A stretch of DNA of 64,000 nucleotides from Streptomyces sp. NBC_00442 (GTDB taxonomy: Bacteria > Actinomycetota > Actinomycetes > Streptomycetales > Streptomycetaceae), in the NCBI RefSeq assembly GCF_036014195.1, contig NZ_CP107918.1, positions 7,440,001-7,504,000 on the forward strand, written 5' to 3'. Made by a program: the position numbers and the translations under genes. The notes below the pieces were generated by a model that saw only the letters and a list, made by a program, of their open reading frames with translations, had not been told where the DNA came from and searched no databases. Shown here one piece after another: positions 50,045 through 61,853 of this stretch (positions are counted from its first letter, which is position 1; each line of letters begins with the position of its first letter).

Positions 50045-50262
50045 TCTCGCGTTGCGGAGGCTCAAGCAGACGGCCCTCGGACAGCACGATCAGGACCTCG
50101 CCGTCCGCGTGGGTCCAGGTGTCAGCGTGCCGGCAGCCGTAGGTGTTGTCGGCATCGTTCACATTGATCGCCGGAAACAGGAGCGACCCGTCCCGGCGGG
50201 TGTGCTGCTCCACGCCCAGGTGGACCAGGATTCCGGGGCCGCCTTCCCGGAAGACCTCGCGG
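50045..50262 (-). pseudogene. ahcY: S-adenosylhomocysteine hydrolase remnant
   Basis: A short frame reads GDGSLLFPAINVNDADNTYG-like sequence: SLLFPAINVNDADNTYGCRH is the strongly conserved SAH-hydrolase active-site block (normally [21 protein letters not shown]). DTWTHADGEVLIVLSEGRLL follows, resembling a segment some 200 residues further on in intact enzymes (before GHP). So the NAD domain is deleted and the ends are missing. About 70 of the usual 470-480 codons remain. Confidence 0.65.
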
Positions 50263-50704
50263 TTCCGCGAACCGGCGGATCTCGCGCACATCGGTGGGGG
50301 GCATGATCTCGGGGATGATCGGCACGTCGCAGCCCGCGGCGGCCGCACGGTCGGGCAACCGCAGAAAGTCCTCGACGTGGAAGAACATCTGCGCGATCGC
50401 GCAGTCGGCCCTCGCCCGGCACATCGCGACGGCGTGCCGGATGTCCTGTGCCCAGTCCGGCGAGCACCGATGGTGGTCTCCGCCGCGGTCCGTCGGGTGA
50501 CGGCGATCGTGCGGTCGCGGGAGGAGCCGCCGGCGCCACAGGTCACCGACACGAAGTCGGGAGCCAGAGGGGCTCGATGCGGCGGACGGCCTGCCACAGA
50601 GTCTCCTCGCCCCGCGCCGTCCTGGGCGGGAAGAACGCGAACGAGAACGTCGGCGACGTGCCCGTCGACCGCGCCGCGTCGGGCCGGTACCGCGCCCCCG
50701 TCAC
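50263..50704 (-). pseudogene. metF: Methylenetetrahydrofolate reductase remnant
   Basis: Starts with a GTG overlapping the PfkB stop (GTGA), as in an intact operon: FSFAFFPPRTARGEETLWQA is the MetF N-terminus. It shifts frame at 50580-50590 into PDFVSVTCGAGGSSRDRTIA, then after a further shift and deletion continues as CAIAQMFFHVEDFLRLPDRA, AAAGCDVPIIPEIMPPTDVR and EIRRFAEPR. About 130 of the usual 290-300 codons remain in three frames. It then merges into the ahcY relic. Confidence 0.75.
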
Positions 50705-51684
50705 GACACGCGGGCGAGCCCCGGTTCGAGGGCGCGGGCCGCGTCGCGACCGTACGTCTGGTCGATGCGGGCGAGCAGGTCGGAGGGCGCCAGCTTGTAC
50801 TCCTGGGTGCCGACCGACTCCAGCACCGTCGTGGCCAGGGCGCAGCCGAGTCGCGCGGACTGCTCCTGGGTGCACCCCCAGGCCGTGCCGGCCAGGAAGC
50901 CGGAACGGAAACCGTCGCCCGCGCCCGTGGGGTCGGCGATCCTGCCCGCGGGCACCGCCGGTATGCGCAACGCGTCGGCGCCCTGCCTGGCCAGGGACAC
51001 CCCGGCCTCGCCGAGCGTGGTGATCCACGTGCCGACCCGGCCGAGCAGATCCCGCTCGGTCCACCCGGTGCGTTCGAGCAGCAGCGCGGCCTCGTACTCG
51101 TTGGTGAACAACCACCGTGCGCGGTCGACGAGTTGACGCGCCTCGTCGCGGTCGAGACGCGCGAGCTGCTGCGACGGGTCGGCGGCGACGGGGATGCCGA
51201 GGCGGTGGGCGGTGGCGGTGTGCCGCAGCATGGCGCCCGGGTCGTCGGCCCCGACCAGGACGAACCGGGGGGTCCCGGTCCGTTCCGCGACCGAGGCCAG
51301 GTCGATCCGGGAGGCCTCGGCCATCGCGCCCGCGTAGAAGGTGGCGATCTGGTTCTGGTCGTCGTCGGTGGTGCACACGAACCGTGCGGTGTGCAGACGC
51401 TCACTGACCCGGACCTCGGCGGTGTCGACGCCGTTCGTGCGCAGCCAGGTGCCGTACTCGGCGAAGTCGACGCCCGCCGCGCCGACCAGAACCGGGTCGA
51501 GGCCGAGGAGGCCGAGCCCGAAGGCGATGTTGGCGCCGACGCCGCCGCGGCGCACTTCGAGCCGGTCGGCGAGGAACGACAGGGATACCCGTTCCAATTG
51601 CTCCTTGAGCAGTTGTTCGGCGAAGCGTCCGGAAAAGACCATCAGATGGTCGGTCGCTATGGAGCCGGTCACGGCGATACGCAT
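50701..51684 (-). CDS. PfkB-family carbohydrate kinase, adenosine-kinase-like
   Basis: 327 residues, ribokinase fold. N-terminal VTGSIATDHLMVFSGRFAEQ and RRGGVGANIAFGLGLLG; the catalytic DPTGAGDGFRSGFLAGTA near the C-terminus holds the anion-hole and base Asp. The N-terminal pattern matches bacterial adenosine kinases, which convert adenosine (from SAH cleavage) to AMP. Between metK and metF/ahcY relics this supports a SAM-recycling role. ATG with AAGGAGTG upstream. Confidence 0.82.
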   Translation of the reverse strand: MRIAVTGSIATDHLMVFSGRFAEQLLKEQLERVSLSFLADRLEVRRGGVGANIAFGLGLLGLDPVLVGAAGVDFAEYGTWLRTNGVDTAEVRVSERLHTARFVCTTDDDQNQIATFYAGAMAEASRIDLASVAERTGTPRFVLVGADDPGAMLRHTATAHRLGIPVAADPSQQLARLDRDEARQLVDRARWLFTNEYEAALLLERTGWTERDLLGRVGTWITTLGEAGVSLARQGADALRIPAVPAGRIADPTGAGDGFRSGFLAGTAWGCTQEQSARLGCALATTVLESVGTQEYKLAPSDLLARIDQTYGRDAARALEPGLARVS

Positions 51685-51826
51685 GGAGGGCACTCCTTGG
51701 ATCTGGGGCCGGGGTGGGGGAGGGGCGGGGCCGGGGGCGGCCGGCCCGCGGGAGGGCGGTACGCGGTCCGGGGGAAACCGCGCACCGCCGGCTCGTGCGC
51801 CGGGGCTGTCCCCGACGTGGGTCCCC

Positions 51827-53053
51827 TCAGGCCGCTGCCACGGCCTTGCGCAGGGCGTCGGCGCGGTCGGTGCGCTCCCAGGTGAAGTCGGGGAGTTCGC
51901 GGCCGAAGTGGCCGTAGGCGGCGGTCCGGGCGTAGATCGGCCGCAGCAGATCGAGGTCGCGGATGATCGCGGCCGGGCGCAGGTCGAAGACCGAGGTGAT
52001 GGCGGTCTCGATCTTCTCGACGGCGACCGTGTGGGTGCCGAAGGTCTCCACAAACAGGCCCACCGGCTCGGCCTTGCCGATCGCGTACGCCACTTGGACC
52101 TCGCAGCGCGTGGCCAGGCCCGCGGCCACCACGTTCTTGGCGACCCAGCGCATCGCGTAGGCGGCCGAGCGGTCCACCTTGGAGGGGTCCTTGCCGGAGA
52201 AGGCGCCGCCGCCGTGACGGGCGTAGCCGCCGTACGTGTCGATGATGATCTTGCGACCGGTGAGGCCGGCGTCGCCCATCGGGCCGCCGATCTCGAAACG
52301 GCCCGTGGGATTGACCAGGAGCCGGTAGTCGTCCGTGTCCAACTTGATCCCGTCGACGGCTAGTTGGGCCAGGACGTGCTCGACGACGTGGACGCGGATG
52401 TCGGGAGCGAGCAGGCCCGCCAGGTCGATGTCGCCGGCGTGCTGGGAGGAGACGACGACCGTGTCGAGCCGGACCGGCCGGCTGCCCAAGTACTCGATGG
52501 TGACCTGGGTCTTGCCGTCGGGTCGTAGGTAGGGCACGGTGCCGTCCTTGCGTACCTGCGTCAGCCGGCGGGAGAGACGGTGCGCCAGCTCGATGGGCAG
52601 CGGCATCAAGGTGGGAGTCTCGGTCGTCGCGTATCCGAACATCAGCCCCTGGTCGCCCGCGCCCTGGCGGCCCAGTTCGTCGGCCTCGTGCGCGGGCGCC
52701 GTGCCCTCGCTCCGGGACTCCGCCGCCGCGTCGACACCCCGCGCGATGTCCGAGGACTGTGCGCCGATGGACACCGACACTCCGCAGGAGGCGCCGTCGA
52801 ACCCCTTGGCCGAGGAGTCGTAACCGATGTCGAGTATCTTCTCGCGCACCAGAGCGGCGATGTCGACGTAGGCGGAGGTCGTCACCTCGCCGGCTATGTG
52901 CACCTGACCCGTGGTGATCAGGGTCTCGACCGCGACGCGAGAGGCGGGGTCGCGGCGGATGAGTGCGTCGAGGATGGTGTCGCTGATCTGGTCGGCGATC
53001 TTGTCGGGATGCCCCTCGGTGACGGACTCCGAGGTGAACAGGCTGCGGGACAT
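51827..53053 (-). CDS. metK: S-adenosylmethionine synthetase
   Basis: 408 residues. All MetK signatures are present: [20 protein letters not shown] at the start, the [20 protein letters not shown] loop, [20 protein letters not shown] and [20 protein letters not shown]. It makes S-adenosylmethionine from methionine and ATP. ATG with CTGGAG about 5-9 nt upstream. Likely a second, pathway-specific copy since it is embedded among SAM-using enzymes; the housekeeping gene is not visible here. No missing active-site blocks. Confidence 0.95.
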
Positions 53054-53235
53054 GACACTCCAGGACAGTGGTGGGTGGGCACGGGGCAGCTCGTGGTGCT
53101 CTGGCCACCCATCGCGTTGACGTCTGCCGGGCCGCCGGGCACGGCGGCACGCGTCGTACCGGTCCCCGCCCCCGGCGGGTGGGAACGGGTGGATCCCACC
53201 CCTCCCGCCGGGGGACTTCGTGGGGTCGCGGACGC

Positions 53236-53880
53236 CTACTTCGACCCGGCCGTGCGGAACACCCAGTAGTCGGCGCCCTCTTCGGCGATGTAGTTGGCGT
53301 CCTCCAACGTGAACTGCAGCGCAGCGCGCTCCGCGACCTCGGACGACCGGGCGAACTCCTCGAAGCCGGTCTCCGTGGCATAGCTGCCGCGCGTGGACAC
53401 CAGGATCAACCCACCGGGCCTGGCGTACTCGATCAGGGTGAGCAGCGCCGTCGGCCGCACATGGCCGAGGGTGAACACACCGCTGCTGACCACGATGTCG
53501 TACTGGTCCAGGCGGTCGTCCCGGACGGGAACCGACAGGTCCACGCCGCCGAAGACCTTCCGGTACGCCTTGGTCCTCGCGGCCTCGGCCGCCATGTTCT
53601 CCGACAGGTCGACGCCGTCGATCACGTAGGTGCCCAGCGTGCTCAGGACGCTGCCGACGAGACCGGTGCCGCAGCCGGCGTCGAATATGGTCGATTCCGG
53701 TGATCCGTAGGCGGAGGCGAGCAGGTGCACGAAGTTGGCCGCGACCCGCGGTGCCACCCACTTCTGGTCCGCGAGATCCCCGTTGTAGCGCGTCGCCCAG
53801 TCCTCGTAATAGGTCTTGAGCCCGGGGGAATCGTCGAAGAAGACGTGGGACTGCTTGATGTTCGCGAAGGAGTTGCTCAT
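53236..53880 (-). CDS. Class I SAM-dependent methyltransferase
   Basis: 214 residues. Motif [19 protein letters not shown], the acidic strand [13 protein letters not shown] and motif post-[21 protein letters not shown]. The short N-terminal helix [16 protein letters not shown] is typical of small-molecule methyltransferases of the Methyltransf_25/WBSCR27-like group. It should give SAH as by-product, which the (now decayed) ahcY and adenosine-kinase genes would recycle. ATG at 53880 with GGGAGG 8 nt upstream. Confidence 0.82.
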
Positions 53881-53980
53881 GGAATTTTCCTCCCTGTCGA
53901 CCCGTGGACCGTCGGACTCAGCCAACGGACATTGCCGTGCTTTTCCGTGCTTGCCGTCCGTGCCGTGCTTTCTCGTCCCG

Positions 53981-54973
53981 TCACATCACGACGGGCACAT
54001 CTGAGGCGTCCGCTTTCTCCGTGGCCCCCTCGCTCGTGGCCCTCGCCCGTGCGTTCTTCACGTCGAACACCATGTAGACGCCGATCCCGGAGAGCACGAA
54101 CAGGGCGCCGCCGACCTCCGTCCATGTGGGCATGCGGTGCTCGACCGGCAGGCTCAGGATGGCGCCGAATATCGTCTCCGTGGCGAGCAGCGGACCGACC
54201 AGTGGAACGGGAATTCCCTGGGCGGCCTTGACCCAGATGTAGGTGCCCCACCACGAGGCGATGACGCCGAGGAACACGCACCACGCGATGATTTTGAAGA
54301 GCGGATACGGATCGAACGTCTCCTGCGGTGTGGAGGCGATCGCGAAAGGCAGCAGGACCATGGAGGCGCCGCCCGCCCCCATCGCCACCAGCGCCGCCCA
54401 GATCGTGGGGTCCGGCTTCCGCTCCCAGGTGCGCTGCGACTGGGCGTTGCGGACCACGAAATAGGACCAGGTACCCATGGCGCCGAGAGCGAGCAGGATC
54501 GCGAAGAGCGAGGCGTGCGCACCGCCCTTTCCCTTTCCCTCGATGAACTCCGTGGCGCTGAGCAGCGTGAGGCCGGAAAGAATCAGAATGACCGGACCGA
54601 GAAGCTCCCGCCACGACAAGCGCTTTTCCGCGAAGTTTCCGGCCACGGCGATCGTGATCGGTGAGGATCCCACGATGACGGCGGTGATGAACCCGCTGTC
54701 CATGGTCGCGGAGTACGAGACGCAGATGTAGAAGAGGAAGTACCCCACGAATCCGATGTACAGACCGAAGAGGACCCTGCGGATCGGCATCAGCTTCAAC
54801 TGGCGCCAGTTCCGGATGAGGACGTAGAGACCGCACAGGCCGAACAAGGTGTACCGGCCGGTGACCAGAAGGAGCTCGCTCGCGGGCTTGACGGCGGCCG
54901 GGGCGACGAAAGCGAACGCCCAGAGCAGCGCGGCCGTCAGCGCGGCGATCACATTGTTCCGTGTGCTGCCCAT
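53981..54973 (-). CDS. EamA/DMT-family exporter
   Basis: 330 residues, ten helices in two EamA repeats. The first helix is IAALTAALLWAFAFVAPAAV; VIVGSSPITIAVAGNFAEKR closes the first repeat; VGPLLATETIFGAILSLPVE lies in the second. DMT exporters remove amino-acid-like metabolites. The start overlaps the stop of the upstream PLP-enzyme gene (TGATG), so they are translated together. It probably exports the product of this cluster. Confidence 0.82.
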   Translation of the reverse strand: MGSTRNNVIAALTAALLWAFAFVAPAAVKPASELLLVTGRYTLFGLCGLYVLIRNWRQLKLMPIRRVLFGLYIGFVGYFLFYICVSYSATMDSGFITAVIVGSSPITIAVAGNFAEKRLSWRELLGPVILILSGLTLLSATEFIEGKGKGGAHASLFAILLALGAMGTWSYFVVRNAQSQRTWERKPDPTIWAALVAMGAGGASMVLLPFAIASTPQETFDPYPLFKIIAWCVFLGVIASWWGTYIWVKAAQGIPVPLVGPLLATETIFGAILSLPVEHRMPTWTEVGGALFVLSGIGVYMVFDVKNARARATSEGATEKADASDVPVVM

Positions 54974-55971
54974 CAGAGAGTCGGCTCCAGCGTGCGGATC
55001 CCACCGGACTCGAAGCCGTGCCGCCGCAGCCAGTCCGGGTTGTAGATCTTCGACATGTACTTGTTTCCGCTGTCCGGCAGCACGGTGACCACCGTCGCCG
55101 GCCGTGTCATCGACCGCGCCACCTGGACCGCGCCCCACACATTGGCTCCCGCGGTACCGCCGCAGACCAGGCCCTCCCGCCGTGCCAAGTGCCGGCATGT
55201 CGCGAAGGCGTCGGCGTCGGTGAAGCGGATGACGTCGTCGACGACCGAGAAGTCCATGCACGAGGCCAGATGGTCCTCGCCCGCGCCCTCGACGAAGTAC
55301 GGCGCGATCTGCGCGGGGTCGACGACACCCTCATGGAAATAGCGGTGATAGATGGACCCGGCCGGATCGAGCAGGACGGACCGCACGGACGGGTTGTGCT
55401 GTTTCAGGAAGCGGGACGTACCGGAGATCGTTCCCCCGGTGCTTCCCGACGCGACGAACGCCGTCACCGACGGCCCGAGTGCCGCCCAGATCTCCGGTCC
55501 CGTCGAGCGGAAGTGCGCCTCGGCGTTGAGGGGGTTGTCGTACTGGTCGAGCATGAACGAGCCCGGTGTTCCGGCGTGGATCCGCCGTGCGCACGTGACG
55601 TAGTGCTCGGCCGAGCCCGGTGGCGCGGAGGTCGGGCAGACGATCACCTCGGCGCCCATCGCGCGCAGCGCGTTGCGCTTCTCCCCGCTGACCTTGTCGG
55701 GCATCGTCAGGACCACGCGGTAGCCACGGATCGCCGCGATCATCGCGATCGCCGCCCCGGTGTTGCCCGAGGTGTTCTCCACGATGGTCGCACCGGGCCG
55801 GAGCAGACCTCGGCGCTCGGCATCGTCGATGATGTAGCTGACCATGCGGTCCTTGATGCTGCCCCCGGGATTCATGAATTCGACCTTGGCGAATATCCGA
55901 ACGTCGGCCGGAACATCAAAGGTCTGCAGTTCAACGAGGGGTGTCTTGCCGATGGTCGACTGGATATTCAT
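54973..55971 (-). CDS. PLP-dependent beta-replacement enzyme (cysteine synthase/CBS-like)
   Basis: 332 residues, fold-type II PLP enzyme. The cofactor lysine is K40 in FMNPGGSIKDRM. The phosphate-binding substrate loop is ENTSGNTGAAIAM and the glycine-rich phosphate cup is ASGSTGGTISGTSRF; the late block VTVLPDSGNKYMSKIYNPDW is shared with CBS and O-phosphoserine/SbnA-type enzymes. It would replace the beta-substituent of a serine derivative with a thiol or amine (cystathionine, cysteine, or a diaminopropionate-type product). No CBS tandem domain. ATG at 55971 with AGAGGAG upstream. Confidence 0.85.
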   Translation of the reverse strand: MNIQSTIGKTPLVELQTFDVPADVRIFAKVEFMNPGGSIKDRMVSYIIDDAERRGLLRPGATIVENTSGNTGAAIAMIAAIRGYRVVLTMPDKVSGEKRNALRAMGAEVIVCPTSAPPGSAEHYVTCARRIHAGTPGSFMLDQYDNPLNAEAHFRSTGPEIWAALGPSVTAFVASGSTGGTISGTSRFLKQHNPSVRSVLLDPAGSIYHRYFHEGVVDPAQIAPYFVEGAGEDHLASCMDFSVVDDVIRFTDADAFATCRHLARREGLVCGGTAGANVWGAVQVARSMTRPATVVTVLPDSGNKYMSKIYNPDWLRRHGFESGGIRTLEPTL

Positions 55972-56147
55972 CCCGACTCCTCTTACTGAGTGGGTACCGC
56001 GGTAGATGGGGACAGGCATGGCGGGTGACGCGGAGGGCGCGGGACGCCGCAGGGAACGGCGAGACTTCACGACGCAGGGTGCGAGAAGGTGCCGGAAGAC
56101 TCGCCGTGCCCCGAGCAGTCACGTACCGGGAATGCGGTGGAGCAGGA

Positions 56148-57134
56148 TCAGAGGGCGGAATCGGGAATCCTGACCGAGTCGAGTACCGCGACGGTGTGAC
56201 CGACCCTTTCGCCCTTCTGGACCCGGGCGAGCGCGTCCACCGCCGATATCTCGTATGCGGAGAGGTCCCGCTCCAGCTGCACGGCCTGCGCGCCGGCCGC
56301 CGCGGGGGTGACATCGCTGAAGGCGCTCTCCAGAACGTCCACCGGGTAGAAGTGGAACGGCCCCAGCCCTTCGCGCTCCCATTGGGCATAGCCGCCGACG
56401 ACGTCGTGCGGCTCGGACTGAACCTTCCATGTGTAGGTCAGGATGCTGCCGTTGTATCCGGCGGCTCCGGACAGCGCCAGAATCTCGGACAGCGGCACGC
56501 GCGCACCGATCGACGACAGCACGCGGCCGCCCACCCGGAGCAGAGGGTGCGCCTGCTGAAGGGCGAGGTAGTGCAGCGTGACGAGGTTCTTCTCGGCGAA
56601 CCCCGGAATCTCCTCATTGCGCTGGGCGATGAACGTGGAACTGGTCTGCCCCTCCGCGAGGTCGCCGTTCCCCGCCATCGGGATGTTGGGGAGGTTCTCG
56701 TAGATGACATCGACCTCGGACACCTTGCCGACCAGCGGCGCCAGGAGGTCCCCGGAGCCGCCGACGAGTTGGACGTCCCGGTCCAGCAGGTTGCTCTGAA
56801 TGTTTTCCCGCGCATGGGCGAGAACGTCGTCGTGAAGGTCGGTGAAACCGACGGTACGTGCGTGCAAAATCTCGACGGCTGCCAGGACGTCGAGGCCCGC
56901 ACCCGTTCCGATGGTGCAGAACCTCGGCGCCAGGACACCCATGTGCGCGAGGGTCTTGAACGCCGGCACGGCCACGCTCGCGACCCAGTCGGCGCGCGGC
57001 TCGTCGGCCTTCGGAAGGTAGGACCGGTCCGAGAGCTTGAGCCCGATGGACGACCTGATCCGTTCGGTGTCCGCGATCCCGAAGAATTCGCCGGGTGACA
57101 CCACCAGTTCCGCACGGTCGATTTCCGTACCCAT
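56148..57134 (-). CDS. Methyltransferase-fold SAM enzyme with ENLPN motif
   Basis: 328 residues. Residues 70-100 are a class I SAM site (RFCTIGTGAGLDVLAAVEIL, then TVGFTDLHDD). Where amino-methyltransferases of the PrmC type have NPPY, this protein has YENLPNIPMAG (residues 145-155). The remaining C-terminal 120 residues are a cap-like region. It may be a methyltransferase, but the same fold also includes cyclases that turn SAM into azetidine-2-carboxylate plus methylthioadenosine (VioH/AzeJ). First gene of the minus-strand unit; ATG with AAGGAGG. Substrate not known. Confidence 0.6.
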   Translation of the reverse strand: MGTEIDRAELVVSPGEFFGIADTERIRSSIGLKLSDRSYLPKADEPRADWVASVAVPAFKTLAHMGVLAPRFCTIGTGAGLDVLAAVEILHARTVGFTDLHDDVLAHARENIQSNLLDRDVQLVGGSGDLLAPLVGKVSEVDVIYENLPNIPMAGNGDLAEGQTSSTFIAQRNEEIPGFAEKNLVTLHYLALQQAHPLLRVGGRVLSSIGARVPLSEILALSGAAGYNGSILTYTWKVQSEPHDVVGGYAQWEREGLGPFHFYPVDVLESAFSDVTPAAAGAQAVQLERDLSAYEISAVDALARVQKGERVGHTVAVLDSVRIPDSAL

Positions 57135-57442
57135 TTCGGCCTCCTTCGACGTGACGACAGCGCTGCTTCCACGAGGGCGTCCGACGGACAGCGGACCCGG
57201 GCCGGTGAAAGAGCCGACGGGGACATCGAGCGGATGGCCTCGCAGGAATGGGCAGCAGCTGGATGACTTCCGTACGCGCCGTTCAGCCGTTCACGTAGTA
57301 CGGCCCCTGCGGTGGAAGTGACTTCACTATCGTGCAGCTCGCGGAATCCTGTACAGGGCCGCCCTGTTGTCTCTCGACAGGCAACGCCACCGGGGCGCGG
57401 GCGCGGCGGGGGGAACATTCCGGCCAGAGGGGCCGTGCGCCG
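57135..57442. other. Divergent promoter region of the SAM cluster
   Basis: No gene. The minus-strand operon promoter should be here; CCTGTACAGG (57348-57357) is a perfect 10-bp palindrome close to a plausible position. I did not find the TATACC-type operator on this side. Confidence 0.35.
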
Positions 57443-57472
57443 TTGACACCAAAATGATCAGCTCTCTAGCAT
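57443..57472 (+). promoter_or_regulatory. Consensus promoter of the acireductone-dioxygenase-like gene
   Basis: TTGACA (57443-57448), an 18-nt spacer and TAGCAT (57467-57472): one of the best sigma-70-like promoters in the window. The TetR-type palindrome begins 6 nt downstream of the -10, covering the start of transcription. Confidence 0.6.
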
Positions 57473-57477
57473 GTAGC

Positions 57478-57493
57478 TATACCGGTTGGTATA
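57478..57493. promoter_or_regulatory. TetR-type operator (copy 1)
   Basis: TATACC-GGTT-GGTATA, perfect 6-bp arms around a 4-nt spacer, just after the -10 box of the dioxygenase-like gene. The same architecture is found upstream of the TetR gene at 60630-60647. Confidence 0.65.
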
Positions 57494-57694
57494 CCTCACC
57501 GTCTCCCTCCGAAGGAGATGCACGCGTGACGCCCCACCTGCCCGGCGCGCCGCCTCATGGCGCCTCAACTCCCCCTGAAACACGGCCTGTTGACTCACCG
57601 CGCGATCACCGCAGCGGCCATCTGTCCACCGCCTCGGCCGCCCGCTCGCGCCGTGCGGCTTCGACGGCCCCACGGAGGTCGGAGTGACTGCCCC
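57494..57694. other. 5' untranslated region
   Basis: About 200 nt between the promoter/operator and the GTG start. GAAGGAGATGCACGCGTG at 57510-57527 is a strong ribosome site followed by a GTG at 57525, but that frame is arginine/proline-rich and ends as a shadow before the dioxygenase. It may be a short leader peptide. Confidence 0.3.
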
Positions 57695-58273
57695 GTGACG
57701 CTGCTTCAGGTCATGCCGGAGGGCGCGCCGGAAACGGTGAGCGTGCGGACCGACGACTTCGACGTCATCCGGGAAGAGCTGCTGAGGATCGGTGTGCGCT
57801 TCGTGCGCTGGCATGCCGCCCGTCGCGTCCCGTCCTGCGCCGACGACGCCACCATCATCAACGCCTACCGGAGTCACATCGACCACGTCGGTGCCGAAGG
57901 CGGGTACCGCACGGTCGACGTCGCGCGCGTGGCTCCGGGCCCGGCCGGCCCGGACCCGTTCCGGCGCAGGTGTCCGGCCCGCGAGAAGTTCCTCAAGGAA
58001 CACTTCCACGACGAGGACCTGGTGCGCTTCGTCGTCTCCGGGGCCGGCTGCTTCTACCTCCACGCGGCCGGCCGGGTCCACGCGGTGCTCTGCACGGCGG
58101 GCGACATGCTGTCCGTCCCGAGCCGGACCGTGCACTGGTTCGACGCCGGTGCGCGTCCCAGCTACACCGCCATCCGCTTCTTCCGGGAGGGTGACGACCG
58201 CTCCGCGCGCTTCGTTCCGGACGGCATCGCCTCCCGCTTCCCGACCCTCGACGACCTCGTGCCCGTGACGTGA
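57695..58273 (+). CDS. mtnD: Acireductone-dioxygenase homologue lacking the Glu metal ligand
   Basis: 192 residues with the ARD cupin. GYRTVDVARVAPGPAGPDPF and REKFLKEHFHDEDLVRFVVS, then GDMLSVPSRTVHWFDAG align by eye with methionine-salvage acireductone dioxygenase. The metal His residues H103, H105 and H147 are present. The fourth ligand (Glu102 in the Klebsiella enzyme, motif H-x-H-x3-E) is L109 here. ARD normally oxidises the acireductone derived from methylthioadenosine. It may have altered chemistry or no activity. GTG start with GGAG 10 nt upstream. Confidence 0.75.
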   Translation: MTLLQVMPEGAPETVSVRTDDFDVIREELLRIGVRFVRWHAARRVPSCADDATIINAYRSHIDHVGAEGGYRTVDVARVAPGPAGPDPFRRRCPAREKFLKEHFHDEDLVRFVVSGAGCFYLHAAGRVHAVLCTAGDMLSVPSRTVHWFDAGARPSYTAIRFFREGDDRSARFVPDGIASRFPTLDDLVPVT

Positions 58274-58449: not shown

Positions 58450-59868
58450 ATGGTACGGGAATCAGCGCAGAGCCGGGCGGCAACCACCGTGCACAGTAGG
58501 GAAGTTGAGTCCGCCGCAGTGGGTTCCGGCGCTCCGGTGACGTTCGGGCAGCTGCTCCGGGCCCACCGGAAACAGCGAGGCCTCTCGCTCGCCCAGTTGG
58601 CCACGCGGGTGCACTTCAACCGAGGGCACGTCAGCAAGATCGAGACCGACAAGCGGCCGCCCTCGGTGAGCTTCGCGGAGGCCTGCGACCGGGCGCTGAA
58701 CGCCGGCCACACCTTCGCCACCATCGCCGCGGCCCTGGAAGCGGCCGCACGCCATCAGCAGGGCTGGGTCCAGCCGGCCCAACTGCCGGCCACCAAACGC
58801 CACTTCGTGGGGCGGCAGGACGGTCTGTACCGGCTCGACCGGCTCTTAGAAAGCCACGAGCCCTCCCTCGCGGTACCGGTCGCGGTCGTCAACGGACCGC
58901 CGGGCGTCGGAAAGACGGCGCTCGCCGTGCAGTGGGCCCACCGGGCCGTCAATGACGGTCACTTCGCCGACGGGCAGCTCTTCGTCAACCTGGAGGGTCC
59001 CGAGCCCGGCACCGCGGCCTCGCCGTTCGACGTACTGGGAGACCTGCTCCGCGCCGTGGGCGTGCCCGCCGACCGCGTCCCGGCGGACCTGGACCAGCGC
59101 GCCGCCACGTTCCGATCGTATCTGCACGGACGGGAGATCCTGCTCGTCCTCGACAACGCCACGGACGCCCAGCAGATCTACCGGCTGTTGCCCGGCTCGC
59201 CGGGATGTGCCGTCGTGGTGACCAGCCGTTCGCGGCTGCCCGGACTGTTGTCCCTGGTGGACGCCGTGATGCTGCCGCTGACCGAGCTGCGACGATCGGA
59301 CGCCGTGCAACTGATCCGGGCGAACATCGGTGAGGTGCGCGCCAACGCCGACCCCGAGGCGGTGTCCGTGCTGGCGGAGCGCTGTGGACGCCTGCCGCTC
59401 GCGCTGGTCCTCGCCGCCGAACACATCGTGAGCCACCAGCATCGCAGCGCCGAGGCCCTAGCCGCCCAACTGGAGCCCGAGGGAGCCCGGTTGAACCTCG
59501 CCGAGGGCGATGTGGTGCTGCGCGACGCGTTCGACACCTCGTACAAGGCACTGGACGAGCAGAGCGCTCGCATGTTCCGGGTGCTTGGCCGGCTTTCCGG
59601 CCAGGTGATCGACGCCGCTGTCACCGCGGCGTCCGCCGGGGTCAGTCAGGACGAGGCGTCACGCCTGTTGCGCGAGCTCGCCGGCGCGCACCTCATTCAG
59701 CGCCAGGACGAACGCCATTACCTCATGCACGATCTGCTCCGGGCGTACGCGGCCGACCTGGCGCGGCAGTTGGACGGCGAGGCCGAACGCGCGAAGGCGA
59801 TGCGCCGGGCGACGCCGCCGGTACCGGCGATGAACTCGACCGCTCTTCCCTCCCTGCTCGTCGCCTAG
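58450..59868 (+). CDS. XRE/NB-ARC transcriptional regulator (SARP-type AfsR-like without SARP domain)
   Basis: 472 residues. N-terminal XRE helix-turn-helix (about 32-88): FGQLLRAHRKQRGLSLAQLA, then HFNRGHVSKIETDKRPP. NB-ARC ATPase (about 115-440): P-loop VNGPPGVGKTALAVQWAHRA, Walker B EILLVLDNA, sensor VVVTSRSRLPGL, GLPL-like CGRLPLALVLAAEHI and MHD-like YLMHDLLRAYA. The usual TPR tail is absent. Such proteins control secondary metabolism. ATG with TGGGGA upstream. It probably regulates this cluster together with the TetR gene. Confidence 0.85.
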   Translation: MVRESAQSRAATTVHSREVESAAVGSGAPVTFGQLLRAHRKQRGLSLAQLATRVHFNRGHVSKIETDKRPPSVSFAEACDRALNAGHTFATIAAALEAAARHQQGWVQPAQLPATKRHFVGRQDGLYRLDRLLESHEPSLAVPVAVVNGPPGVGKTALAVQWAHRAVNDGHFADGQLFVNLEGPEPGTAASPFDVLGDLLRAVGVPADRVPADLDQRAATFRSYLHGREILLVLDNATDAQQIYRLLPGSPGCAVVVTSRSRLPGLLSLVDAVMLPLTELRRSDAVQLIRANIGEVRANADPEAVSVLAERCGRLPLALVLAAEHIVSHQHRSAEALAAQLEPEGARLNLAEGDVVLRDAFDTSYKALDEQSARMFRVLGRLSGQVIDAAVTAASAGVSQDEASRLLRELAGAHLIQRQDERHYLMHDLLRAYAADLARQLDGEAERAKAMRRATPPVPAMNSTALPSLLVA

Positions 59869-59987: not shown

Positions 59988-60620
59988 TCATGTGGTGGCG
60001 AACCGTTGCGCGAGCGACCTCTCCAGGAGCACCGCGGCCATCTGCTCGGCGCGGTCCACGGCCCGGTCCACCGACTGCATCGAGTGCGTGATGGTCGCGC
60101 CCTCGTGCAGGATCAGCACTTGGGCGGCCAGCGCCGCGGGATCCTGGACGCGGGCCTCCTTCGCGAGGTCTTCGAGGAAGGCGAGGAACCAGGTCTTCTG
60201 ATCGCTGGCGACCTCCCGGCCCGGATGGTTCGCCGGCAGCTCCACGGAAGCGTTGATGAACGCGCAGCCGCGCACGTTGCGCTCGTGCATCCAGTCGCGC
60301 AGGGCCGAGAAGGTGGAAAGGATCTTCTGTGTGGGCGGCCCGTCGTGACTGTTGACGTGCTTCACCAGGGTGGACCGCCACAGTCCGTCCCGAGCGCGCA
60401 GGTAAGCGACAATAAGGTCGTCCTTGGACCCGAAACGGTCGTACAGGGTCTTTTTCGTAACCCCCGCTTCTTCCGCGATCGTCTCGACGCCGACAGCGCG
60501 GATGCCCTGCTCGTAGAAGAGGCGGGACGCGGTCTCCAGGACCTTTACGCCGGCCGGCGTCAGATGCTGTACCCCGCGTCGCTTGCCGCTTCGGCCGCTG
60601 CTTTCGCTGCTCGTGGTCAC
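59988..60620 (-). CDS. TetR-family repressor
   Basis: 210 residues. The helix-turn-helix is IAEEAGVTKKTLYDRFGSKD (about residues 45-64), after LETASRLFYEQGIRAVGVET. The C-terminal half has GCAFINASVELPANHPGREV, characteristic of the YcdC/NemR-like group. GTG at 60620 lies next to a palindrome, consistent with self-repression; the frame stays open to 60635. The same palindrome is in the promoter of the dioxygenase-like gene. Confidence 0.85.
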   Translation of the reverse strand: MTTSSESSGRSGKRRGVQHLTPAGVKVLETASRLFYEQGIRAVGVETIAEEAGVTKKTLYDRFGSKDDLIVAYLRARDGLWRSTLVKHVNSHDGPPTQKILSTFSALRDWMHERNVRGCAFINASVELPANHPGREVASDQKTWFLAFLEDLAKEARVQDPAALAAQVLILHEGATITHSMQSVDRAVDRAEQMAAVLLERSLAQRFATT

Positions 60621-61085: not shown

Positions 61086-61853
61086 ATGGCTGAGGCCTGC
61101 GCCATCGACGTGGTCGTCTTCGATGTGCTCGGCACGATGGTGAACGAGCCGGGTGGGCTACGGGCGGCCGTGTGTGAAGCGGTCCGTGCGGGGACGTCCA
61201 CGGCAGCCGAGGTCGAAGGTCCTGGCGGGGGAGTCGGCTCAGGGGTGAACGGGATGAACGGGGAGCCGGGCGAGGCGTTCGTGGACCAGCTGGTGGCCGT
61301 GTGGCAGGACCACGTCGCACAGGAACAGCGACGCATCGACGCGGGCGAGCGGGCCTACGCCAACTCGGAGGTACTCGACCGTGAGGCCGCCGGACTCGTG
61401 GCCGAGCGCGCGGCGCTCACGGACCCGCTGGCCCTCGCGCGCCTGGCCACCGCCGCTCAGCGGCTCGACGCGTGGGCCGACTCCTCCGCGGGCCTCGCCC
61501 GGTTCGCCCGGCGCTTTCCCGTCCTCGGACTCACGCACGCCAGCCGCGCGACCCTGCTCCGGCTCAACGCGCATGCGGATCTGCGTTGGCACCAAGCCCT
61601 GTCCGCCGAGGACGCCGCGGCGCACAAACCCGCACCGGCGGTGTACCGCCTCGCTCTCGACGCGGCAGGGTGCCCGCCGGAGCGCGTACTGATGGTCGCC
61701 GCCCACGCCTGGGACCTCCGCGGCGCCCAATCCGTGGGCATGCGAACCGCCCATGTGTGCCGGCCGGTCGGCGACCCTCCCCGGGAATCCGACACCTTCA
61801 CCTGGCGGGCGAACAGCCTGACGGAACTGGCCGACGTCCTGATGCCGTCCTAG
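61086..61853 (+). CDS. HAD-superfamily hydrolase, haloacid-dehalogenase type II-like
   Basis: 255 residues. Nucleophile motif VVVFDVLGTMVNE (Asp at motif I), motif II LGLTHASRATLL (Thr/Ser), the motif III lysine in EDAAAHKPAPAVYRLALDAA, and motif IV VLMVAAHAWDLRGA. The sequence between motifs I and II matches the helical cap of 2-haloacid dehalogenases. A Gly-rich insertion (about 45-60) is unusual. ATG with GGGGGAG upstream. Confidence 0.82.
   Translation: MAEACAIDVVVFDVLGTMVNEPGGLRAAVCEAVRAGTSTAAEVEGPGGGVGSGVNGMNGEPGEAFVDQLVAVWQDHVAQEQRRIDAGERAYANSEVLDREAAGLVAERAALTDPLALARLATAAQRLDAWADSSAGLARFARRFPVLGLTHASRATLLRLNAHADLRWHQALSAEDAAAHKPAPAVYRLALDAAGCPPERVLMVAAHAWDLRGAQSVGMRTAHVCRPVGDPPRESDTFTWRANSLTELADVLMPS

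Follow-up and report, generated by a model that had tools for sequence, protein, structure and literature searches.

What does a Streptomyces make with a gene cluster that combines two predicted methyltransferases, an enzyme dependent on pyridoxal phosphate (PLP), a transporter and its own supply of S-adenosylmethionine (SAM)? The cluster lies in Streptomyces sp. NBC_00442, in a window of 64,000 nt (7,440,001–7,504,000 of the single contig, NZ_CP107918.1, of a 7.73 Mb genome; feature positions below are those of the window), and its key member is a 328-aa protein, hereafter ENLPN (56148..57134, minus strand), an MmtN/MMT-like SAM-dependent enzyme and predicted S-methyltransferase. An earlier note had suggested that the locus makes and exports a small amino-acid-like compound from SAM, with azetidine-2-carboxylate as one candidate. 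Given the gene content, synteny, selection, the MmtN-like fold of ENLPN and the split of its family into two clades, the locus is best read as making and exporting a methylated sulfur amino acid, a reading that we hold tentatively, at somewhat less than an even chance. We infer all reactions and the product from the neighbours, predicted folds and clades described below.

ENLPN matches no Pfam family. The best match of its predicted structure, over nearly the whole chain, is MmtN, a methionine S-methyltransferase, which ranks above HemK in both structural comparisons of the model; moreover, the ENLPN profile aligns with the profile of plant MMT, GCxPQ on the MMT side being aligned with ENLPN in the motif IV region. 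A single-sequence search of the PDB yielded nothing below E 0.37, BLASTP against plant MMT no match (best E 0.30), and profile searches of PDB sequences retrieved HemK and L11 methyltransferases via the SAM site (E 0.001), with MmtN appearing in them at no better than E 1.3 and 0.59. The link between ENLPN and MmtN is clear because of the predicted model and the MMT profiles. In the passages of PMC9135737 on MmtN residues, Asp69 binds SAM, Cys121 is assigned to SAM, Glu127 to a methionine contact and Arg132 to methionine, and some MmtN proteins carry Asp at the position of Glu127. Of these residues, Asp69 is kept, the aligned Asp99 being present in all 95 sequences of our set (the window protein and 94 relatives). 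Arg172, Glu174, His188, Arg212, Lys237, Gln239 and His313 are invariant or nearly so. The family forms a branch of the MmtN/MMT superfamily that, as far as literature searches show, has not been described. It shares with MmtN and plant MMT the class I methyltransferase fold and is set apart from them by the genes it is found with: those for PLP enzymes, members of exporter families or a lyase-like cupin. Its holders include Fibrobacter, Zoogloeaceae, Rhodopseudomonas, Streptomyces and mushrooms. The mushroom proteins (P0084, P0107, P0110 and P0115, from Mycena and Infundibulicybe) form one clade on the exporter side of the tree described below, possibly the result of a transfer from a bacterium to a fungus.

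The genes named in the earlier note were all found, in the order given there on the minus strand. ENLPN is followed by a PLP enzyme of fold type II (332 aa, 54973..55971; PF00291, E 5.6e-74), similar to cysteine synthase and cystathionine beta-synthase (CBS), and by an EamA-family transporter, presumably an exporter (53981..54973; PF00892, E 1.5e-17), whose start and the end of the PLP gene overlap at 54973. The best NCBIfam model for the PLP enzyme is cysta_beta, at 356.5 bits and below the cut-off of 510, and only PF00291 was found in the protein, with no C-terminal CBS domains, so it does not qualify as a CBS; the nearest solved structure is 9k2p. From its sequence we predict an enzyme of the beta-replacement type. 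Further along the run are a second class I methyltransferase (53236..53880; PF08242/PF13489), whose closest solved relative is METTL27 (7qcb, E 8.3e-18), the SAM synthetase MetK (51827..53053; TIGR01034, 536.6 bits against a cut-off of 309.4) and the PfkB-family adenosine kinase AdoK (50701..51684), which aligns over its full length (residues 1–319) with adenosine kinases of known structure (4o1g, 2pkf and others, E about 1e-99). The decay reported for the last two genes was borne out by tblastn: metF is a wreck of pieces in three frames with the middle missing (50254..50704; searched with the copies of loci L031 and L034), and ahcY is reduced to two short pieces (50061..50294), whereas relatives carry both genes intact.

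The locus is a real unit, recurring in other Streptomyces and in one Nocardiopsis. A search of 392 genomes of the genus gave ENLPN matches in 24, full-length in eight (source genome included, 77–100% identity) and partial and weak, with about 30% identity, in the remaining 16. A wider scan of GTDB genomes gave 112 relatives, 80 of which were retained as loci. Fourteen loci are from Streptomyces or Nocardiopsis (the window and L031–L043, where L032 and L034 are two copies from one genome); contig ends cut eight of these (L032, L033, L035, L036, L037, L039, L040 and L043), and some absences there mean little. With this reservation, EamA and the second methyltransferase are each found in 13 of the 14 loci, the PLP gene in 12 (in L031 as a fragment only), MetK in 11, AdoK in ten, metF in seven (counting the wreck in the window) and ahcY in four. 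Synteny across Streptomyces, on which the earlier proposal hung, is kept in this comparison, and the flanking DNA varies between several genomes carrying the cluster. Ratios of nonsynonymous to synonymous substitution rates (dN/dS) between the window and L031 are 0.144 for ENLPN, 0.090 for EamA, 0.128 for the second methyltransferase, 0.092 for MetK and 0.150 for AdoK, and the PLP enzyme has 0.100 relative to L032. Hence the core genes are under purifying selection and the cluster is maintained, with less constraint on two genes discussed below, one for a homologue of acireductone dioxygenase (ARD; 0.178 relative to L031, 0.306 to L032 and 0.362 to L040) and one for a HAD hydrolase (0.236 relative to L031).

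Gene decay is strain-specific: the window has no intact metF and ahcY, and L031 retains both of them; its PLP gene, however, has lost about 0.8 kb from its interior. L041 is without metF and ahcY although it is not cut by a contig end, and L038 has only ENLPN, EamA, the methyltransferase and the upstream genes. The two copies in one genome belong to Streptomyces sp. NBC_01306, where they lie on two contigs with identical ENLPN, possibly in a terminal repeat. The Nocardiopsis locus has an additional piece of the methionine cycle between adoK and metF (L043:8541-9128), a gene whose product carries the activation domain seen in B12-dependent methionine synthase (PF02965).

A tree of 90 ENLPN rows (midpoint root only; long branches for L080, L093 and L047) is split into 57 rows, 54 of them with a cupin, and 33 rows, with support 100/96. 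The smaller clade holds all 18 loci with a CBS-like gene, the fungi, other database proteins and the window. All 24 of its loci carry a gene of an exporter family no more than 1.4 kb from ENLPN, which, with the genes that use and recycle SAM, supports the export part of the earlier claim. The exporters are EamA in 20 loci (Pfam-checked in five, namely the window, L032, L044, L047 and L048, read from an open reading frame (ORF) in L093, and tblastn matches in the rest), LysE in two (L081 and L105) and MFS in two (L080 and L042). The CysK/CBS-like PLP gene is present in 18 of the 24 loci and the cupin in none; neither a cupin match nor, within 3 kb, MetI was found in this exporter clade. Conversely, cupin-clade loci have no EamA match within 3 kb of ENLPN.

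In the 67 loci outside the Streptomyces/Nocardiopsis set (66 non-actinomycete ones and Actinopolyspora L080), neighbours were counted by tblastn throughout. A PF16867-type cupin lies at most 520 bp downstream of ENLPN, on the same strand, in 54 of them, representing six phyla (Pseudomonadota, Fibrobacterota, Verrucomicrobiota, Acidobacteriota, Myxococcota and Bacillota), and MetY at most 150 bp upstream in 26. Less frequent neighbours are a CBS-like gene within 100 bp downstream (six loci), EamA within 700 bp (seven), MetI within 150 bp (eight) and a divergent metK within 500 bp (eight, all Fibrobacterota); cupin and adjacent CBS never occur together (0/67), and five loci have none of cupin, CBS, MetY and EamA adjacent. 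The Fibrobacterota metK, about 255 bp upstream of ENLPN in L072, L073, L075, L078 and L086–L089, is an independent pairing with SAM synthetase. In four loci (L057, L059, L098 and L102) nitrogenase-like homologues, putatively methylthio-alkane reductase but matched by models of nitrogenase families, lie near ENLPN; no paper joining methylthio-alkane reductase with a lyase of dimethylsulfoniopropionate (DMSP) was found in open-access PMC.

The cupin resembles DMSP lyases. Two scanned copies score 87.3 and 88.2 bits with PF16867 (cut-off 27), and the six PDB entries that Foldseek ranks highest for the predicted structure (mean local confidence, pLDDT, 94.9) are all DMSP lyases, five titled DddQ and then DddK (E 6.1e-16 to 4.7e-14), at 21–27% identity to the best solved lyases. 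Tyr137, His140, His142, Glu146, Tyr148 and His180 are invariant in ten aligned cupins. The predicted fold and the invariant His140, His142, Glu146 and His180 are common with DddQ and DddL, and, unlike them, the cupin sits beside a methyltransferase and often MetY. In each of nine genomes chosen from the 54 cupin loci, exactly one PF16867 match exceeds the cut-off, and it lies at the ENLPN locus; one of the nine has a second, below-cut-off match; 14 control genomes have none over the cut-off, and no match was found in three exporter-clade Pseudomonadota and eight Streptomyces tested. As the cupin is mostly single-copy and yet stands beside ENLPN in 54 of 67 loci, the pairing is not due to chance. 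With its PF16867 score and DddQ-like fold, the cupin is a candidate member of the DMSP lyases.

These observations suggest the following scheme. The PLP enzyme would supply a thioether by beta-replacement on serine or O-acetylserine; ENLPN would use SAM to methylate the sulfur of this thioether amino acid, yielding a sulfonium amino acid and S-adenosylhomocysteine (SAH); and EamA would carry the sulfonium out of the cell, possibly after further modification by the second methyltransferase. MetK, AdoK, MetF and AhcY would regenerate SAM from SAH, and the source strain, having lost metF and ahcY, could rely on its housekeeping copies. Genes for MetK, AdoK, MetF and AhcY likewise stand together in methionine-cycle cassettes of other Streptomyces biosynthetic clusters; unlike those, the present set is tied to a small amino-acid-type pathway. 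In the sister clade, the DddQ-like cupin would take the place of the exporter and eliminate dimethyl sulfide from a similar sulfonium, while MetY and the CBS-like enzyme may each join an amino-acid backbone to a thiol, giving methionine or S-methylcysteine. A methyltransferase of the MmtN kind directly before a lyase suggests the series from thioether to sulfonium to cleavage, and by analogy with known lyases dimethyl sulfide is probably the product of that cleavage. DMSP lyases remove the alpha proton and expel dimethyl sulfide from the beta carbon. As the lyase needs a beta sulfonium and CBS-like enzymes give beta-substituted alanines, the favoured product is the S,S-dimethylsulfonium of cysteine (2-amino-DMSP), ahead of S-methylmethionine.

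A broader proposal, possible but held more loosely than the one for this locus, is that ENLPN proteins are sulfur methyltransferases of a new branch that serves two ends. With the cupin as partner, often behind MetY, they would methylate sulfur amino acids for subsequent elimination and so release dimethyl sulfide without marine DMSP; in Streptomyces and some Pseudomonadota, where a cysteine-synthase-like enzyme and an exporter accompany them, they would make and secrete a sulfonium amino acid, possibly 2-amino-DMSP. Neither the cluster nor the ENLPN–cupin pair was described among the matches listed in open-access PMC literature. If sulfonium amino acids are made, dimethyl sulfide would have a source outside the sea whose genes can be recognised, and the product of the Streptomyces cluster would be a small exported metabolite not known before. 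A family without a Pfam model is tied by its neighbourhood to DMSP-lyase-like cupins and methionine enzymes, and the pattern of partners in two clades makes its function directly testable.

The SAM-using and recycling genes stood up to analysis; the part of the earlier note that invoked salvage of methylthioadenosine (MTA) by an ARD was weakened. The divergent ARD-like cupin, a homologue of MtnD, is encoded on the plus strand (57695..58273; PF03079, E 3.2e-20), where the longest ORF begins at 57557 and the start was set near 57695 by a gene predictor and relatives. It is found in 12 of the 14 loci. The metal ligands of acireductone dioxygenase are three histidines and Glu102; the histidines are kept, and Glu102 (numbered by alignment of the L032 copy to 1zrr) is replaced by Leu, Val or Met in all 12 copies, two of them identical and from one genome, with Leu in the window. 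An MtnB-like gene, absent from the window, occurs in nine of the 14 loci, and the HxH metal motif of MtnB is kept in two of the nine rows, both from one genome; the L032 protein scores 118.6 bits, below the NCBIfam cut-off of 137. Homologues of both MtnB and MtnD are present in nine loci, as in MTA salvage, with ligand positions lost. Judging from these sequences, they are diverged or failing salvage enzymes and do not speak for active salvage.

Several observations weigh against a sulfonium amino acid as the exported product. Of the MmtN residues, Cys121 is not kept, the aligned position 147 being Asn in 95/95 sequences, and neither is Glu127, position 153 being mostly Leu, Met or Ile (both placed by profile alignments); the MMT profile itself has Asn at the latter position. 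Arg132 lies in a stretch inserted with respect to the MMT profile; the ungapped position 158 is variable, and Arg172, nearby, is present in 94/95. Since neither Cys121 nor Glu127 is conserved, another molecule may accept the methyl group, and homology does not tell which. Class I methyltransferase folds also cyclise SAM, and the fold alone proves no function; likewise, EamA, LysE and MFS families also include importers and other carriers, so that export is presumed. The PLP gene is missing in six of the 24 exporter-clade loci; L038 and L047 lack it, and the L031 copy has lost an internal part, so that some loci do without it. The ENLPN gene of Streptomyces canus (L042, 2-10987) is in an unrelated setting, the only one of the cluster genes there, beside an MFS gene. 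The MtnB/ARD pair, though degenerate, hints at a link to MTA. Finally, in two Pelagibius loci a gene similar to nicotianamine synthase (PF03059, E 5.9e-11 and 1.3e-13) is followed by LysE and ENLPN in one apparent operon.

The last two points bear on an alternative in which ENLPN transfers the 3-amino-3-carboxypropyl group of SAM, as in nicotianamine synthesis, releasing MTA, and the PLP enzyme adds an aminocarboxyethyl group as SbnA does, the exported product being an aminopolycarboxylate and perhaps a metal chelator. The nicotianamine-synthase-like gene suggests aminocarboxypropyl chemistry in Pelagibius, where the set of three genes is possibly a metallophore or opine operon; EamA exporters serve opine metallophores, homologues of MTA-salvage enzymes lie within the Streptomyces cluster, and the PLP enzyme is weakly similar to the SbnA model (227 bits, cut-off 350). 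Yet the best fold match of ENLPN methylates the sulfur of methionine, AhcY, AdoK and MetF recycle SAH and not MTA, the salvage homologues are degenerate, and this chemistry gives no reason for a DMSP-lyase-like partner; we consider it improbable. Cyclisation of SAM by ENLPN to azetidine-2-carboxylate and MTA, with export by EamA, fares far worse and is very improbable, though it would jointly explain the exporter, MetK and the salvage homologues. The azetidine-2-carboxylate synthase AzeJ likewise has a class I methyltransferase fold, and the passages of PMC11794875 on AzeJ, VioH and Cac6 give FY, PFNxxGN and RxxYYxxC as motifs of all homologues. In ENLPN sequences, PFNxxGN and RxxYYxxC are found in 0/95 and FY, within the first 40 residues, in 1/95, so the azetidine product of the earlier note is not upheld and membership of ENLPN in this synthase family is ruled out. 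AzeJ and VioH were not listed in profile searches of PDB sequences with E up to 10; their absence from the 50 structural matches listed for the ENLPN model proves nothing. Cyclisation also leaves AhcY, AdoK, MetF, MetY and the cupin unexplained, and the closest structural relative, being a methionine S-methyltransferase, points to methyl transfer, with SAH as by-product, rather than to cyclisation.

If methyl transfer is accepted, the acceptor could still be nitrogen, oxygen or carbon, either in an amino acid without sulfur or in what the PLP enzyme makes; the sulfur setting would then be incidental. Weak matches of ENLPN to PrmC/HemK profiles, the second methyltransferase, and the position of the ENLPN motif, which is that of NPPY/NLPY in N-methyltransferases, speak for this, and the conserved Arg172 to His313 set would suit any polar amino acid; but relatives have MetY and the DddQ-like cupin immediately beside ENLPN, which points to sulfur, and MmtN stands above HemK in structure. 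We regard such acceptors as unlikely, though less so than aminocarboxypropyl transfer. Compatible with a sulfonium product, and slightly less probable than the latter transfer, is self-protection: the product would be an antimetabolite of methionine or SAM, and MetK, AdoK, MetF and AhcY tolerant extra copies. In its favour, a second methyl cycle that is almost complete lies next to regulators and a transporter for small molecules, and the genome has four metK matches, the window copy included. However, loss of metF and ahcY with ENLPN, EamA and MetK intact suggests that the two lost genes are dispensable, and in other Streptomyces clusters such cassettes serve for supply.

Downstream of the ARD-like gene are an XRE-NB-ARC regulator (58537..59868, plus strand; PF13560, PF00931), present in 12 of the 14 Streptomyces/Nocardiopsis loci and with dN/dS of 0.098 between the window and L031, and a TetR-like regulator (59988..60620, minus strand; family named by sequence reading), also present in 12, of which the L042 copy sits elsewhere and 11 keep the position. 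A HAD type II hydrolase (61086..61853, plus strand; TIGR01428 in the L032 copy), found in 11 loci, is likely the cluster edge. The L042 setting resembles a polyketide cluster, by eye and two Pfam checks. In Photorhabdus (L093:4680-13376), ENLPN immediately follows a polyketide synthase module (KS-AT-DH-KR-ACP); downstream there are a PLP fragment of 124 aa and two ORFs, one EamA-like and the other LysE-like. In the two Pelagibius metagenome-assembled genomes, the genes that accompany the nicotianamine-synthase-like one (L081:8264-9151 and L105:8319-9206) include LysR, oriented divergently, and a Dpp-like ABC transporter, oriented convergently.

Elsewhere in the source genome there are one intact ahcY and two intact metF copies and one MtnA match; a PF03079 search of the genome (E 0.001) gave no ARD match besides the window copy. 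A second metF lies close to a metK (C1:1018332-1021425), and another SAM-recycling cassette may exist there.

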